Below, piece by piece: positions 19,206 to 23,534 of a stretch of DNA of 64,000 nt. A program made the position numbers and the translations under genes. Position 1 is the stretch's first letter; the number at the start of each line of letters is the position of its first letter. Source of the stretch: Chitinophagaceae bacterium (lineage in GTDB: Bacteria > Bacteroidota > Bacteroidia > Chitinophagales > Chitinophagaceae); the NCBI GenBank assembly GCA_018335935.1, contig JAGXRG010000026.1, positions 186,001 through 250,000 of the forward strand. Reading direction: 5' to 3'. The notes beneath the pieces are model-generated. The model was not told where the DNA came from and made no database searches. It saw only the letters and a program-made list of their open reading frames with translations.

Positions 19206-20795
19206 ATGCAGCACAAAAGTAGAATGAGTTTGATGCCAGTAGTTTTTGCACTATTATTTTTAGTGGGTTTAGCTATGGGCTATGCTTTAAACAATAAAGC
19301 AGGTGGAGGTAGTATTTTTAGTAAAAACAAGAATACTACTTTACAAGAAATATCTAACCTTATTCAAGCAAAGTATGTAGATCCTATTGCAGTAGATAGT
19401 TTAAATGAATATGCTATAGAAGAAATGTTACGACATATAGATCCTCATTCAGTCTACATTCCACCAATTGACTTACAAGCTGTAAATAATGAAATGGAGG
19501 GTCAATTTGTTGGCATAGGAATAATTTATGATGTAATTGATGATACCGTTACTGTAATTAATGTATTAAAAAATGGACCAGCCCTAAAAGCTGGAATTTT
19601 AGTTGGAGATAAAATTTTAAAAGCAAATGATACTATTAACTTGGTGAACAAAAATCAACAAGCAAAAGAAATACGAAATTATTTACGTGGAAAAGAAGGT
19701 TCTAGTGTTAAAATCTATCTTAAAAGAAATCAACAATTCAAAGAAGTAAATATTACAAGAGCATCAATTCCTATTCCTTCAATAGATGTAGCTTATAAAT
19801 TAGATTCAGTAACAGGTTATATCAAAATCAACAAATTTGCTGAAAGAACTTATGAAGAGTTTATGCAAAGTTTAGAAGCTCTTCAAAAACAAAAAATGGA
19901 TAAACTCATCATTGATCTTAGAGAAAATGGTGGTGGATATATGAGTGCTGCAACTGCAATAGCAGATGAATTACTAGCTGGTGATAAACTTATTGTATAT
20001 ACACAAGGCAACAAATCTGAAAGAGCAGTATTTCAATGCAAAAAAGAGGGCTTGTTCGAGAAAGGAGAATTAATAGTTTTAATAGATGAAAACTCTGCTT
20101 CAGCCAGTGAAGTATTAACTGGTGCTTTGCAAGATTGGGATAGAGCGACTATTGTTGGTCGTCGTTCTTTTGGAAAAGGTTTAGTACAACAACAGTTTAA
20201 TTTAAGTAATGGTGGAGCTATAAGACTAACTGTTGCCCGTTATTATACTCCATTAGGAAGAAATATTCAAAAGCCCTACACTAATGGTGTTGAAGCTTAT
20301 AAAGAAGAAGTTTTACATAGATTTATAGATGGTGAATTGTCGAATCAAGAATCTAAGTCGTTAGTTGGAAAACCTGTTTATAAAACGCCTAAAGGGAAGT
20401 TAGTTTATGGTGGTGGTGGAATTATTCCAGATTATTTTATTCCAATTGATACCATTCTTATGGATACCTCAAAAAGCAATTATAAATTGATGATGGGATT
20501 TAATAAATTTATTTATCAATATTTTTTTAGCCACCAAATTGAACTAAAAAAGTATACCAATTACAAAACTTTTTATCAAACTTTTAAATTAACTCAAGAA
20601 GATTGGAGAGCAATTGAAATCAATGCTAATAAGCATAAAGGATCTGAAATATATTTATCTCCTGAGTTAAAAGTTGTACTAGAACAAAAACTAAAAGAGC
20701 ACCTAATTAAACTACTTTTCAGCACTGAGGAATATTATAAATACAAAAATCTAAATGATGCTTTTATAAAGAAGGCAACAATGTTGAATGATTAA
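19206..20795 (+). CDS. S41-family C-terminal processing peptidase
   Basis: 529 residues. N-terminal signal anchor (about 8-28), PDZ domain (about 90-175; GIGIIYDVIDDTVTVINVLKNGPALKAGI), then the S41 protease core with catalytic Ser299 in ENSASASEVL and Lys324 in RRSFGKGLVQ, the Ser/Lys dyad of the CtpA/Prc family. It faces the periplasm and trims or degrades proteins from their C-termini. A C-terminal extension of about 150 residues is typical for Bacteroidota members. Four bp after the rnhA stop; the stop overlaps the convergent GNAT gene by 4 bp. Confidence 0.93.
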   Translation: MQHKSRMSLMPVVFALLFLVGLAMGYALNNKAGGGSIFSKNKNTTLQEISNLIQAKYVDPIAVDSLNEYAIEEMLRHIDPHSVYIPPIDLQAVNNEMEGQFVGIGIIYDVIDDTVTVINVLKNGPALKAGILVGDKILKANDTINLVNKNQQAKEIRNYLRGKEGSSVKIYLKRNQQFKEVNITRASIPIPSIDVAYKLDSVTGYIKINKFAERTYEEFMQSLEALQKQKMDKLIIDLRENGGGYMSAATAIADELLAGDKLIVYTQGNKSERAVFQCKKEGLFEKGELIVLIDENSASASEVLTGALQDWDRATIVGRRSFGKGLVQQQFNLSNGGAIRLTVARYYTPLGRNIQKPYTNGVEAYKEEVLHRFIDGELSNQESKSLVGKPVYKTPKGKLVYGGGGIIPDYFIPIDTILMDTSKSNYKLMMGFNKFIYQYFFSHQIELKKYTNYKTFYQTFKLTQEDWRAIEINANKHKGSEIYLSPELKVVLEQKLKEHLIKLLFSTEEYYKYKNLNDAFIKKATMLND

Positions 20796-21343
20796 TCATT
20801 CTTTACAAGTGAGAAAATTGCACTATCTAAAAATTTGCCATTAGAAAAATAATTTTCTCTGAAATAAGCTTCTTGAACAAACCCAAGCTTTAGCAAAATT
20901 TGTCTTGATGCTTCATTTACTGGATTAATATTAGCCTCTATTGAATGTAAATTAAGTTGATTGAACCCAAAATGAATTACGCTTTTTAAAGATTCAAGCA
21001 TAATCCCTTTTCTGTGAAAAGTAGGATTTAAAATATAACCTATCTCTGCTCTAAAATTTGGTTTATCCATTTTCCAAAAACCAATAGTACCAATAAGTTT
21101 ATGATCTTCTTTTAAACATATTGCCCAAGTAACTCCATCTTTTTTTTCATAAACTTCATCTATCACTTTAATTAAATTCAAAGCATCATCATACGAAGTT
21201 GCAATAGGTCGATCAATATATTTCATCGCAGATTCATTTGATCTAATGACAAATAAATCTGCGACGTCTTCTTTTACAATTCTTCGTAAATAAAGTCTTT
21301 CTGTTATTAATTCAGGAAAGTAACTAAAATCGTAAAGTGGCAT
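20792..21343 (-). CDS. GNAT-family acetyltransferase (RimJ/RimL-like)
   Basis: 183 residues, Acetyltransf_3 type. Opens with ITERLYLRRIVKEDV, the acetyl-CoA core is AEIGYILNPTFHRKGIMLESL (RxxGxG/A-like loop), and it ends with EASRQILLKLGFVQEAYFRENYF. RimJ/RimL relatives acetylate protein N-termini or small amines; the substrate here is unknown. It follows the nucleotidyltransferase gene by 5 bp and is probably the last gene of that operon, so an amino-sugar link is possible but unsupported by sequence. Confidence 0.85.
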   Translation of the reverse strand: MPLYDFSYFPELITERLYLRRIVKEDVADLFVIRSNESAMKYIDRPIATSYDDALNLIKVIDEVYEKKDGVTWAICLKEDHKLIGTIGFWKMDKPNFRAEIGYILNPTFHRKGIMLESLKSVIHFGFNQLNLHSIEANINPVNEASRQILLKLGFVQEAYFRENYFSNGKFLDSAIFSLVKND

Positions 21344-21348
21344 AAAAA

Positions 21349-22089
21349 TTATTTAAACATGGTTTCAGCAATAACAATACTTTCTGGTTTGCCAACATCA
21401 ATTAATTTATCTTTTGAATGGTTATAAGCCAATATTGTATTAGCTTTCAACAAATCTAAATACACATCTACCAGTGAAAATTTTCCAGTTTGGTTAATTA
21501 GTGATATTAATTTTGATTGCATAATTTGTATTCCACTAAATGCTAAAGGTTGATGTTTTGCCTCGTCAAATTGCTCTACTCCTCTTACTTGTTTAGTGGT
21601 ATTATTCATCCAACCACAAAGTTTTTGCTGTGTGTTAAATAAAAAATATCTCGAAGTGTTTCGTTCTGTAACTGCTAGTGTTGCTAGAACGTTTTTAGTT
21701 ATATGGAATAACAACATTTTGTTGATATCTAAATTAGTGAGCATATCAACATTCATCACCAGAATATTTTCATAACCCTTAAAAAAATGCTCAGCTTTTT
21801 TTAAACCGCCACCAGTTTCTAATACTTCTTCTGTTTCGTCGCTAATGAAAACTTCGCTGCCCCAACCCTTGTTTTCATTAATTATATTGATGATTTGTTG
21901 AGGGAAATGATGAACATTTACAACTACTTTTCTAATATTAAATTGTTGTAGATATTCAATATTGTGTTGTAACAAAGTTTTTCCATTCACCATTGCCAAT
22001 GCCTTAGGATGCTTATCAGTAAAAGGTTTTAATCTTGTTCCTAATCCTGCTGCAAAAAGCATGGCTATCATTTCCTTTTCTTGTTTCAT
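21349..22089 (-). CDS. Sugar-1-phosphate nucleotidyltransferase (MurU-like)
   Basis: 246 residues, NTP_transferase fold. The nucleotide-binding signature is LFAAGLGTRLKPFTDKHPKALA (residues 12-33), followed by GKTLLQHNIEYL, VMNVDMLTNLD (metal-binding Asp) and DVGKPES near the end. It is short, lacks the left-handed helix acyltransferase of GlmU, and is closest in shape to MurU, the MurNAc-1-phosphate uridylyltransferase of peptidoglycan recycling, or to mannose-1-phosphate guanylyltransferases. It starts 5 bp after an AmgK-like kinase gene, exactly the partnership known for AmgK-MurU. I infer MurU-like activity from both points. Confidence 0.8.
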   Translation of the reverse strand: MKQEKEMIAMLFAAGLGTRLKPFTDKHPKALAMVNGKTLLQHNIEYLQQFNIRKVVVNVHHFPQQIINIINENKGWGSEVFISDETEEVLETGGGLKKAEHFFKGYENILVMNVDMLTNLDINKMLLFHITKNVLATLAVTERNTSRYFLFNTQQKLCGWMNNTTKQVRGVEQFDEAKHQPLAFSGIQIMQSKLISLINQTGKFSLVDVYLDLLKANTILAYNHSKDKLIDVGKPESIVIAETMFK

Positions 22090-22094
22090 GTAAA

Positions 22095-23534
22095 TTATTT
22101 AACCCAATTTTCTTGGTTAAGATGCTTAAGTTCTACTTTTAATTTATACTTATTTTTTAAATGTCTTGCTGTTTGTTCAGCAGCATAAACACTTCTGTGC
22201 TGACCACCAGTACAACCAAAATTAATTTGCAAATGTTCAAAGCCTCTATTCAAATAATCTTCGACATTAATATCAATTAAATCCCACACACTATTTAAGT
22301 ATCTGTTCATTAGCGTTTCTTGTTCAAGATAATCCATTACTGGTTTATCTTTTCCAGTCAACTTTTTATACTCATCTTTTCTGCCAGGGTTTAAAATGCC
22401 TCGCATATCAAACATAAAGCCTCCTCCATTTCCAGAATCATCTTTTGGTAACCCTTTTTTATAACTAAAACTATTGATTTCAATTTTTAGCTTTGTTGAT
22501 TCATTTGCTTTTGTTGGGGTAAACTTTTTTATGGTAAGATTTGAGGTAACAAACTGTAATATTTTATCAAACTCTGGTGTATTTAAACCCAGATTTTTGT
22601 TTTCAATAAAATATTTAAGATTTTGTAAAGCCAAAGGAATACTAGCCAAAAAATGAGCTTTTCTTTCGAACAAACCTCTAAAACCATAAGCCCCTAACAC
22701 TTGCAATAACCTAATTAATACATAACCATAATATCGGTTGATGAATGTTGATTTATTAACTGAAGATTGCAGCAGTTGTTCTAATTCTTGGATATAATAA
22801 TCTAACAATTTTTCTTTCCATTCATTACTTAATTCGGCCTTTGCCTGCCATAATAAACTTGCTACATCATATTGTAAAGCACCTTTCATTCCACCTTGAT
22901 AATCAATAAAATAAACTTCGTTATTATTTACTAAAATATTTCTACTTTGAAAATCTCTGAACATGAAATTTTTATATTCTGCATGATCTAAATAATCAGC
23001 TAAAATTTCAAATTCCTTCAGTAACAATTGTTTATCGTATGGGAATTGAAGTGTATCTAAAAAATAATATTTAAAATACAACAAATCGGCAAGTATGGCT
23101 TCTTTTCCAAATTCTTTTGCTGTAATACATTGGTTATAATCAAAATTTTTATCTCCTTTAATTTGTAATGCTACCAAATGCTTTAAACTCTTTTTATACA
23201 AATCAAAAACAGAGTCAGCATGTCCTTGATTTTCTATATAACTCAATAAACTTTCAGCTCCAACATATTCTTGTAAATAAGCTGTATGGTCTTCGTTAAT
23301 TTCAAGTATTTTAGGTGTATTTAATTGTTGCTTTGCAAAATGATGACTACAATAAATAAAAGCTTTATTCTCTTTAATATTTAAACTAAAAGTGCCAATC
23401 ACTTTTTCATCTTCACTTGAAATAATGTAATAATTTCTGTCGCTGCCACTTTGAGGAATTTTAGTAATACTATCTGGATACTTGCCTTTATACTTAAAAT
23501 ACAAATCGTTTAAAATAGAAATATGTTCTTGCAT
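22095..23534 (-). CDS. AmgK-like phosphotransferase fused to a RapZ C-terminal domain
   Basis: 479 residues, two domains. Residues 1-310: aminoglycoside-phosphotransferase fold, with the catalytic loop FRDFQSRNIL (Asp194, Asn199), metal-binding Asp211 in FIDYQGGMKGALQYDVASLL. The RDF...DFQ...YDxxSLL pattern matches AmgK, the anomeric MurNAc/GlcNAc kinase, rather than antibiotic kinases. Residues 345-479: the RapZ/YvcJ C-terminal domain, with FMFDMRGILNPGR, KLTGKDKPV, NFGCTGGQHRSVYAAE (439-453) but not the N-terminal P-loop of RapZ. In E. coli this domain binds glucosamine-6-phosphate. Followed by the MurU-like gene. Confidence 0.85.
   Translation of the reverse strand: MQEHISILNDLYFKYKGKYPDSITKIPQSGSDRNYYIISSEDEKVIGTFSLNIKENKAFIYCSHHFAKQQLNTPKILEINEDHTAYLQEYVGAESLLSYIENQGHADSVFDLYKKSLKHLVALQIKGDKNFDYNQCITAKEFGKEAILADLLYFKYYFLDTLQFPYDKQLLLKEFEILADYLDHAEYKNFMFRDFQSRNILVNNNEVYFIDYQGGMKGALQYDVASLLWQAKAELSNEWKEKLLDYYIQELEQLLQSSVNKSTFINRYYGYVLIRLLQVLGAYGFRGLFERKAHFLASIPLALQNLKYFIENKNLGLNTPEFDKILQFVTSNLTIKKFTPTKANESTKLKIEINSFSYKKGLPKDDSGNGGGFMFDMRGILNPGRKDEYKKLTGKDKPVMDYLEQETLMNRYLNSVWDLIDINVEDYLNRGFEHLQINFGCTGGQHRSVYAAEQTARHLKNKYKLKVELKHLNQENWVK

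Follow-up and report, generated by a model that had tools for sequence, protein, structure and literature searches.

The window, i.e., the whole 64-kb stretch of DNA analyzed here, encodes on its minus strand three closely spaced genes, with 5 bp between the first and the second ORF and again 5 bp between the second and the third. The following features were delimited:

22095-23534, minus strand: AmgK-like kinase/RapZ-C fusion gene, 479 aa
22560..23534, minus strand: AmgK-like kinase domain, spanning residues 1-325 of the fusion protein, with the APH fold at residues ~20-312
22098..22511, minus strand: RapZ C-terminal domain (RapZ-C), residues 342-479; PF22740, 2.1e-33 over residues 349-472
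21349-22089, minus strand: MurU-like sugar-1-phosphate nucleotidyltransferase gene, 246 aa; best match to NCBIfam MurU
20792-21343, minus strand: GNAT acetyltransferase gene, 183 aa; PF13302, 1.7e-32; same direction as the fusion gene

A sequence-only reading of this DNA had proposed a tight operon with 5-bp gaps that starts with a kinase fused to RapZ-C. Both proposals hold for the three minus-strand ORFs, as an APH domain (PF01636, 2.2e-12, residues 23-252) and RapZ-C reside in one ORF. The trailing GNAT gene, considered there as a possible member of the unit, did not prove to be a conserved neighbor and was rejected: it is found next to kinase, RapZ-C, and nucleotidyltransferase (the triad) in none of the 80 nearest named loci, and among 35 diverse loci only three reveal a GNAT, located upstream and weakly similar. 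According to locus clustering, the triad constitutes the only set of neighbors conserved across the phylum; no further gene conserved beside it was found in the diverse Bacteroidota loci compared.

By sequence and by fold, the kinase is nearest to AmgK. Its match to the NCBIfam AmgK model is remote but real (4e-10, 39.3 bits) and misses the curated AmgK cut-offs (NF045759, 39.3 of 550 bits; NF045698, 32.5 of 500 bits). The kinase motifs pointed out before are indeed present as RDFQSRN, IDYQGG, and YDVASLL, and the residues R193, D194, F195, R198, N199, D211, Q213, Y222, D223, and S226 are invariant in 30 relatives, including the catalytic D194 and N199 and the metal-binding D211 of the APH fold. 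A profile search of solved structures gives 3csv as best match (3e-24), and the same structure is the top Foldseek match (E 3.5e-12, TM 0.81 by target) of the AlphaFold2 model of the full 479-aa fusion (pLDDT 90.6, pTM 0.77). 3csv is itself AmgK-like, the matched 278-residue piece scoring 240 bits against NCBIfam AmgK. Thus structure prediction and superposition, proposed with the sequence-only reading as a check, place the kinase nearest to an AmgK-like protein and RapZ-C on its E. coli counterpart (see below). Phosphorylation of MurNAc/GlcNAc at C1, as by AmgK, is the predicted activity of the kinase.

The adjacent nucleotidyltransferase (Pfam NTP_transferase) finds its best NCBIfam match over full length in MurU (NF045761, 2.1e-32), again below the curated cut-offs (NF045761, 112.8 of 250 bits; NF045697, 108.9 of 370 bits). 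The signature AAGLGTRLxP..PK, NVD, and DVGKPE corresponds to invariant columns in 25 relatives. A choline kinase and cytidylyltransferase pair, LicA-LicC, likewise consists of an APH-type kinase beside a nucleotidyltransferase. Here, however, searches of Pfam and NCBIfam families yielded no choline-kinase match to the kinase, and the nucleotidyltransferase matches phosphocholine cytidylyltransferase (1jyk) just locally, in the N-terminal part. Because the scores of both proteins fall well short of the curated cut-offs for AmgK and MurU, their enzyme specificity could differ, and we do not file the unit as AmgK or MurU, the activity being a prediction. It is a diverged relative of AmgK-MurU to which RapZ-C is coupled, and the case for its working like AmgK/MurU rests on the distribution described below.

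The P-loop (Walker A) N-terminal domain of RapZ is absent from the fusion, its N-terminal part being the APH kinase; the protein is not simply RapZ, just as the sequence-only reading had it. RapZ-C occurs once in the genome of the window, which therefore holds no canonical RapZ. Modeled alone with AlphaFold2 (pLDDT 90.8), the domain superposes on E. coli RapZ-CTD (5o5s and others) with TM 0.82-0.84 at 30% identity. It carries the phosphate loop GCTGGQHRS (residues 440-448), an extra loop GNGGGF (residues 368-373), and NPG(R) in place of NPH190W of E. coli. All three features are widespread: among 114 Bacteroidota copies of RapZ-C, 113 retain the GCTGGxHRS loop unchanged, all 114 have NPG and none has NPH, and 110 contain a GNGGGF-like insert (GGG plus F or Y). 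The sole changed loop, GCTGGQHHS in L113:35-1483, has His instead of Arg, possibly due to a sequence error or to loss of function.

E. coli RapZ-CTD binds GlcN6P (PMC7073468), and a sulphate/malonate pocket was described that comprises H190, T248, G249, H252, and R253 near C247, with C247S being inactive (PMC9841335). T248, G249, H252, and R253 of this pocket are kept, and H190 is Gly in 18 of 18 compared copies. Since E. coli His190 is always Gly, GlcN6P is not to be assumed as the ligand. Of the residues that contact RNA in E. coli, K194, R211, R238, and K251 are replaced in the compared copies (mostly by E, by varied residues, by F, and by Q, respectively), R196 is mostly K, which leaves R184 and K170 as the only ones that most copies retain. 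With the loop kept, H190 lost, and RNA-contact residues replaced, the pocket for a phosphate-bearing ligand is retained but reshaped, and a role in RNA binding is unlikely. Judged from its residues, we favor RapZ-C as a putative phosphosugar-binding regulatory module. Fold and CTGGxHRS phosphate pocket are thus shared with RapZ/YvcJ of E. coli and B. subtilis, from which the domain differs in lacking the P-loop domain, in His190 to Gly, in the GNGGGF loop, in the loss of most RNA-contact residues, and in its linkage to a sugar kinase. Within the collection of papers searched, no report of a RapZ-C fusion was found, nor one of RapZ in Bacteroidota.

For the distribution of the unit, 296 Bacteroidota genomes were scanned for RapZ-C, kinase, nucleotidyltransferase, AnmK, and MurQ. 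RapZ-C is present in 36 of them, with one copy each, and co-occurrence of the triad is obligate: all 36 also encode the kinase and the nucleotidyltransferase, even where the genes are unlinked. The nucleotidyltransferase adjoins the kinase gene in 26 of 35 clustered loci; its orthologue is found in 36/36 RapZ-C genomes with E<1e-56, sometimes unlinked. The survey of fused versus split forms, suggested together with the fusion, reveals that RapZ-C is fused to the kinase in 27 genomes and stands alone in nine, seven of which have a three-gene operon in the order kinase, RapZ-C, nucleotidyltransferase, while in the other two RapZ-C lies apart from the kinase. In the kinase tree, the split three-gene operons branch among fused forms at three points. 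Hence, changes between fused and split forms have occurred repeatedly, with the operon retained. In the opposite direction, a close orthologue of the kinase without RapZ-C was found in only one further genome (G009), and 63 genomes, all from family f17, encode a kinase homologue that is more distant and likewise occurs without RapZ-C.

MurQ, the MurNAc-6P etherase, is the usual enzyme of muramic acid breakdown. True MurQ was set apart by a wide score gap, with the weakest genuine match at ~1e-51 and the matches to other sugar isomerases no stronger than about 1e-12. Outside f17, MurQ is present in 195/195 kinase-free genomes and absent from 21 of the 37 kinase-bearing ones (naive Fisher 3.5e-20, ancestry ignored); it is retained in the other 16. 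At the family level, the kinase is found in every one of the nine families in which MurQ was lost (p = 9e-8, or 4e-7 without f17, p-values that ignore ancestry beyond the family grouping). Family f16 shows a perfect split: six of six kinase-bearing genomes lack MurQ, and ten of ten kinase-free genomes have it. The occurrence of the kinase is thus complementary to that of MurQ. Furthermore, all 13 genomes with AnmK and without MurQ carry the triad. The genome of the window is one of these, with AnmK at G000:C57:59112-60173, two GH3 genes, and no true MurQ; a search with TIGR00901 did not find AmpG in this genome. AnmK is not a general companion of RapZ-C, as it is absent from 10 of the 36 RapZ-C genomes, and the idea that only AnmK-bearing genomes keep RapZ-C was rejected on these grounds. 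It is also absent from all 64 kinase-bearing genomes without RapZ-C, nearly all of which belong to one family.

MurQ and AmgK-MurU are reported to alternate in beta- and gammaproteobacteria, and MupP was discovered by that reasoning (PMC5371407). The either-or of MurQ and kinase in Bacteroidota follows the same pattern, and therefore the pair most likely works as an AmgK/MurU salvage route. Such a route is used by C. crescentus (PMC13046382), and AmgK/MurU of a Bacteroidota species, T. forsythia, permit labelling with MurNAc probes when expressed in E. coli (PMC13041923). We consider it probable that the unit is the Bacteroidota version of anabolic peptidoglycan recycling of the AmgK/MurU type, with RapZ-C as an obligate third part that adjusts the kinase. 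Most likely, the unit turns recycled muramic acid back into a precursor of the cell wall: the kinase domain would phosphorylate C1 of MurNAc, and probably of GlcNAc as well, and UDP-MurNAc would be made by the nucleotidyltransferase encoded next to it, a route that would bypass MurA/MurB and replace breakdown by MurQ. RapZ-C would bind a phosphorylated amino sugar of the GlcN6P or MurNAc-6P type in its CTGGxHRS pocket and adjust the kinase, acting in cis in the fusions and in trans where the two are separate genes. The substrate, the ligand, and the sense in which the kinase is regulated are predictions. Against this explanation count the scores short of the curated cut-offs, the 16 kinase-bearing genomes that retain MurQ, the 10 RapZ-C genomes devoid of AnmK, the loss of H190, and the missing AmpG match in the genome of the window. 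The salvage of amino sugars proposed by the sequence-only reading has thus gained strong support from the obligate triad and from the complementarity to MurQ, with 3csv as the nearest structure of the kinase, while the self-sensing by RapZ-C, with a phosphate pocket kept and H190 replaced by Gly, we still infer.

Compared with the AmgK-MurU systems of Pseudomonas, Caulobacter, and Tannerella, the unit agrees in the adjacency of an APH-fold kinase and a small nucleotidyltransferase, in the best profile matches, and in its presence where MurQ is absent. It differs in that RapZ-C is carried by or accompanies the kinase, in the scores far below the curated cut-offs, and in that no MupP orthologue was identified with TIGR01449, a scan weak in controls. 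The motif C-x5-R-S of RapZ-C is similar to the phosphate-binding loop seen in Cys-based phosphatases. RapZ-C might therefore be catalytic and, in the place of MupP, convert MurNAc-6P made by AnmK to MurNAc for the kinase, a reading that we regard as unlikely; in its wider form, RapZ-C itself would remove the phosphate from MurNAc-6P or from a different amino-sugar 6-phosphate, with fusion or operon as its link to the anomeric kinase, which seems improbable as well. In the model, the nearly invariant C-T-G-G-x-H-R-S comes after a strand and lies at the start of a helix, as in phosphate loops of the PTP type. For E. coli RapZ, in which C247S is inactive, the authors considered that the thiol might be catalytic, and a probably transformed GlcN6P was seen in the pocket (PMC9841335). 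RapZ-C is present in all 13 genomes with AnmK and without MurQ, which need such a step, and the 64 kinase-bearing genomes devoid of RapZ-C are devoid of AnmK, too, although these are nearly all one family. HAD proteins occur in 50/50 genomes without any exceeding the TIGR01449 cut-off; however, this cut-off is reached in just 1 of 14 control genomes, so that TIGR01449 was rejected as a non-discriminating proxy for MupP, and HAD phosphatases are abundant in every genome. NF045760, tried as a MupP model, was rejected since it represents YtpR. A fold search with RapZ-C returns RapZ and then nothing significant, DUSP26 appearing only at E = 2; a protein-tyrosine-phosphatase fold is thus not supported, and the resemblance is that of a local motif. 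Because of this missing fold match and of the ten RapZ-C genomes without AnmK, and hence without a known source of MurNAc-6P, we do not take the phosphatase as the lead reading. RapZ-C shares with MupP its occurrence with an AmgK-like kinase and in genomes lacking MurQ and, if catalytic, would fill the same step, whereas MupP is a HAD enzyme and RapZ-C a different fold with a putative phosphatase role.

Alternatively, the pair may serve another sugar, e.g., GlcNAc, GalNAc, or a sugar of capsule or O-antigen, with a likeness to MurU at the superfamily level only. The missed AmgK and MurU cut-offs, the ties of RapZ to GlcN6P and GlcNAc metabolism, and the 16 genomes that also keep MurQ are consistent with this. 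Yet a reciprocal relation to MurQ is a specific mark of MurNAc metabolism, no further conserved neighbor accompanies the unit across the phylum, and among the models of sugar kinases and nucleotidyltransferases the two proteins match AmgK and MurU best, so that we hold another sugar to be an unlikely substrate. Quite improbable is an incidental fusion, in which RapZ-C merely stabilises or dimerises the kinase: E. coli RapZ-CTD does dimerise (PMC5737377), and in G009 and f17 RapZ-C does not accompany the kinase, but the pocket is nearly invariant and RapZ-C is a separate protein in nine genomes, unlinked in two of them, neither of which an oligomerisation tag would need. A function in binding RNA or as an RNase adaptor, like that in enterobacteria, is suggested by the homologous RapZ-CTD of E. 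coli, to which GlmY and GlmZ bind (PMC5737377, PMC9841335), and is very improbable in view of the mostly replaced RNA-contact residues, the absent RapZ N-terminal domain, and an RNA-binding determinant reported as restricted to enterobacteria (PMC7073468).

As salvage of the AmgK/MurU type, the unit would bring this route to a large set of Bacteroidota, via a diverged kinase inseparable from RapZ-C. It would also connect RapZ-C, which has been investigated to date for its part in sensing amino sugars and in RNA decay, with the metabolism of MurNAc in bacteria other than enterobacteria. In Pseudomonas and Caulobacter, sensitivity to fosfomycin is lowered by this kind of anabolic recycling. Being one fused enzyme that also exists in naturally split forms, the kinase offers a simple system for learning the ligand or role of RapZ-C. 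If the phosphatase reading were true, MupP would be replaced, and the C-terminal domain of RapZ would have its first catalytic role.

The 80 nearest named relatives belong mostly to Chitinophagaceae, Saprospiraceae, Marinilabiliaceae, and Prolixibacteraceae, the very nearest to Chitinophagaceae, so that the window probably originates from this family. The two RapZ-C genes that stand alone, far away from the kinase gene (L037:9435-9836 and L039:9283-9693), are located in genomes G180 and G271, which have AnmK, lack MurQ, and encode diverged copies of kinase and nucleotidyltransferase elsewhere. Family f17 lacks both AnmK and MurQ; its kinase homologue adjoins a nucleotidyltransferase in five of five loci read (L155:2687-4680 and L156-L159), and the two nucleotidyltransferases examined both carry a C-terminal hexapeptide (GlmU/eIF2B-like) extension. 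One fused copy (L129) originates from a MAG titled Candidatus Delongbacteria and falls within the Bacteroidota diversity in the tree, which indicates either a binning error or a transfer.
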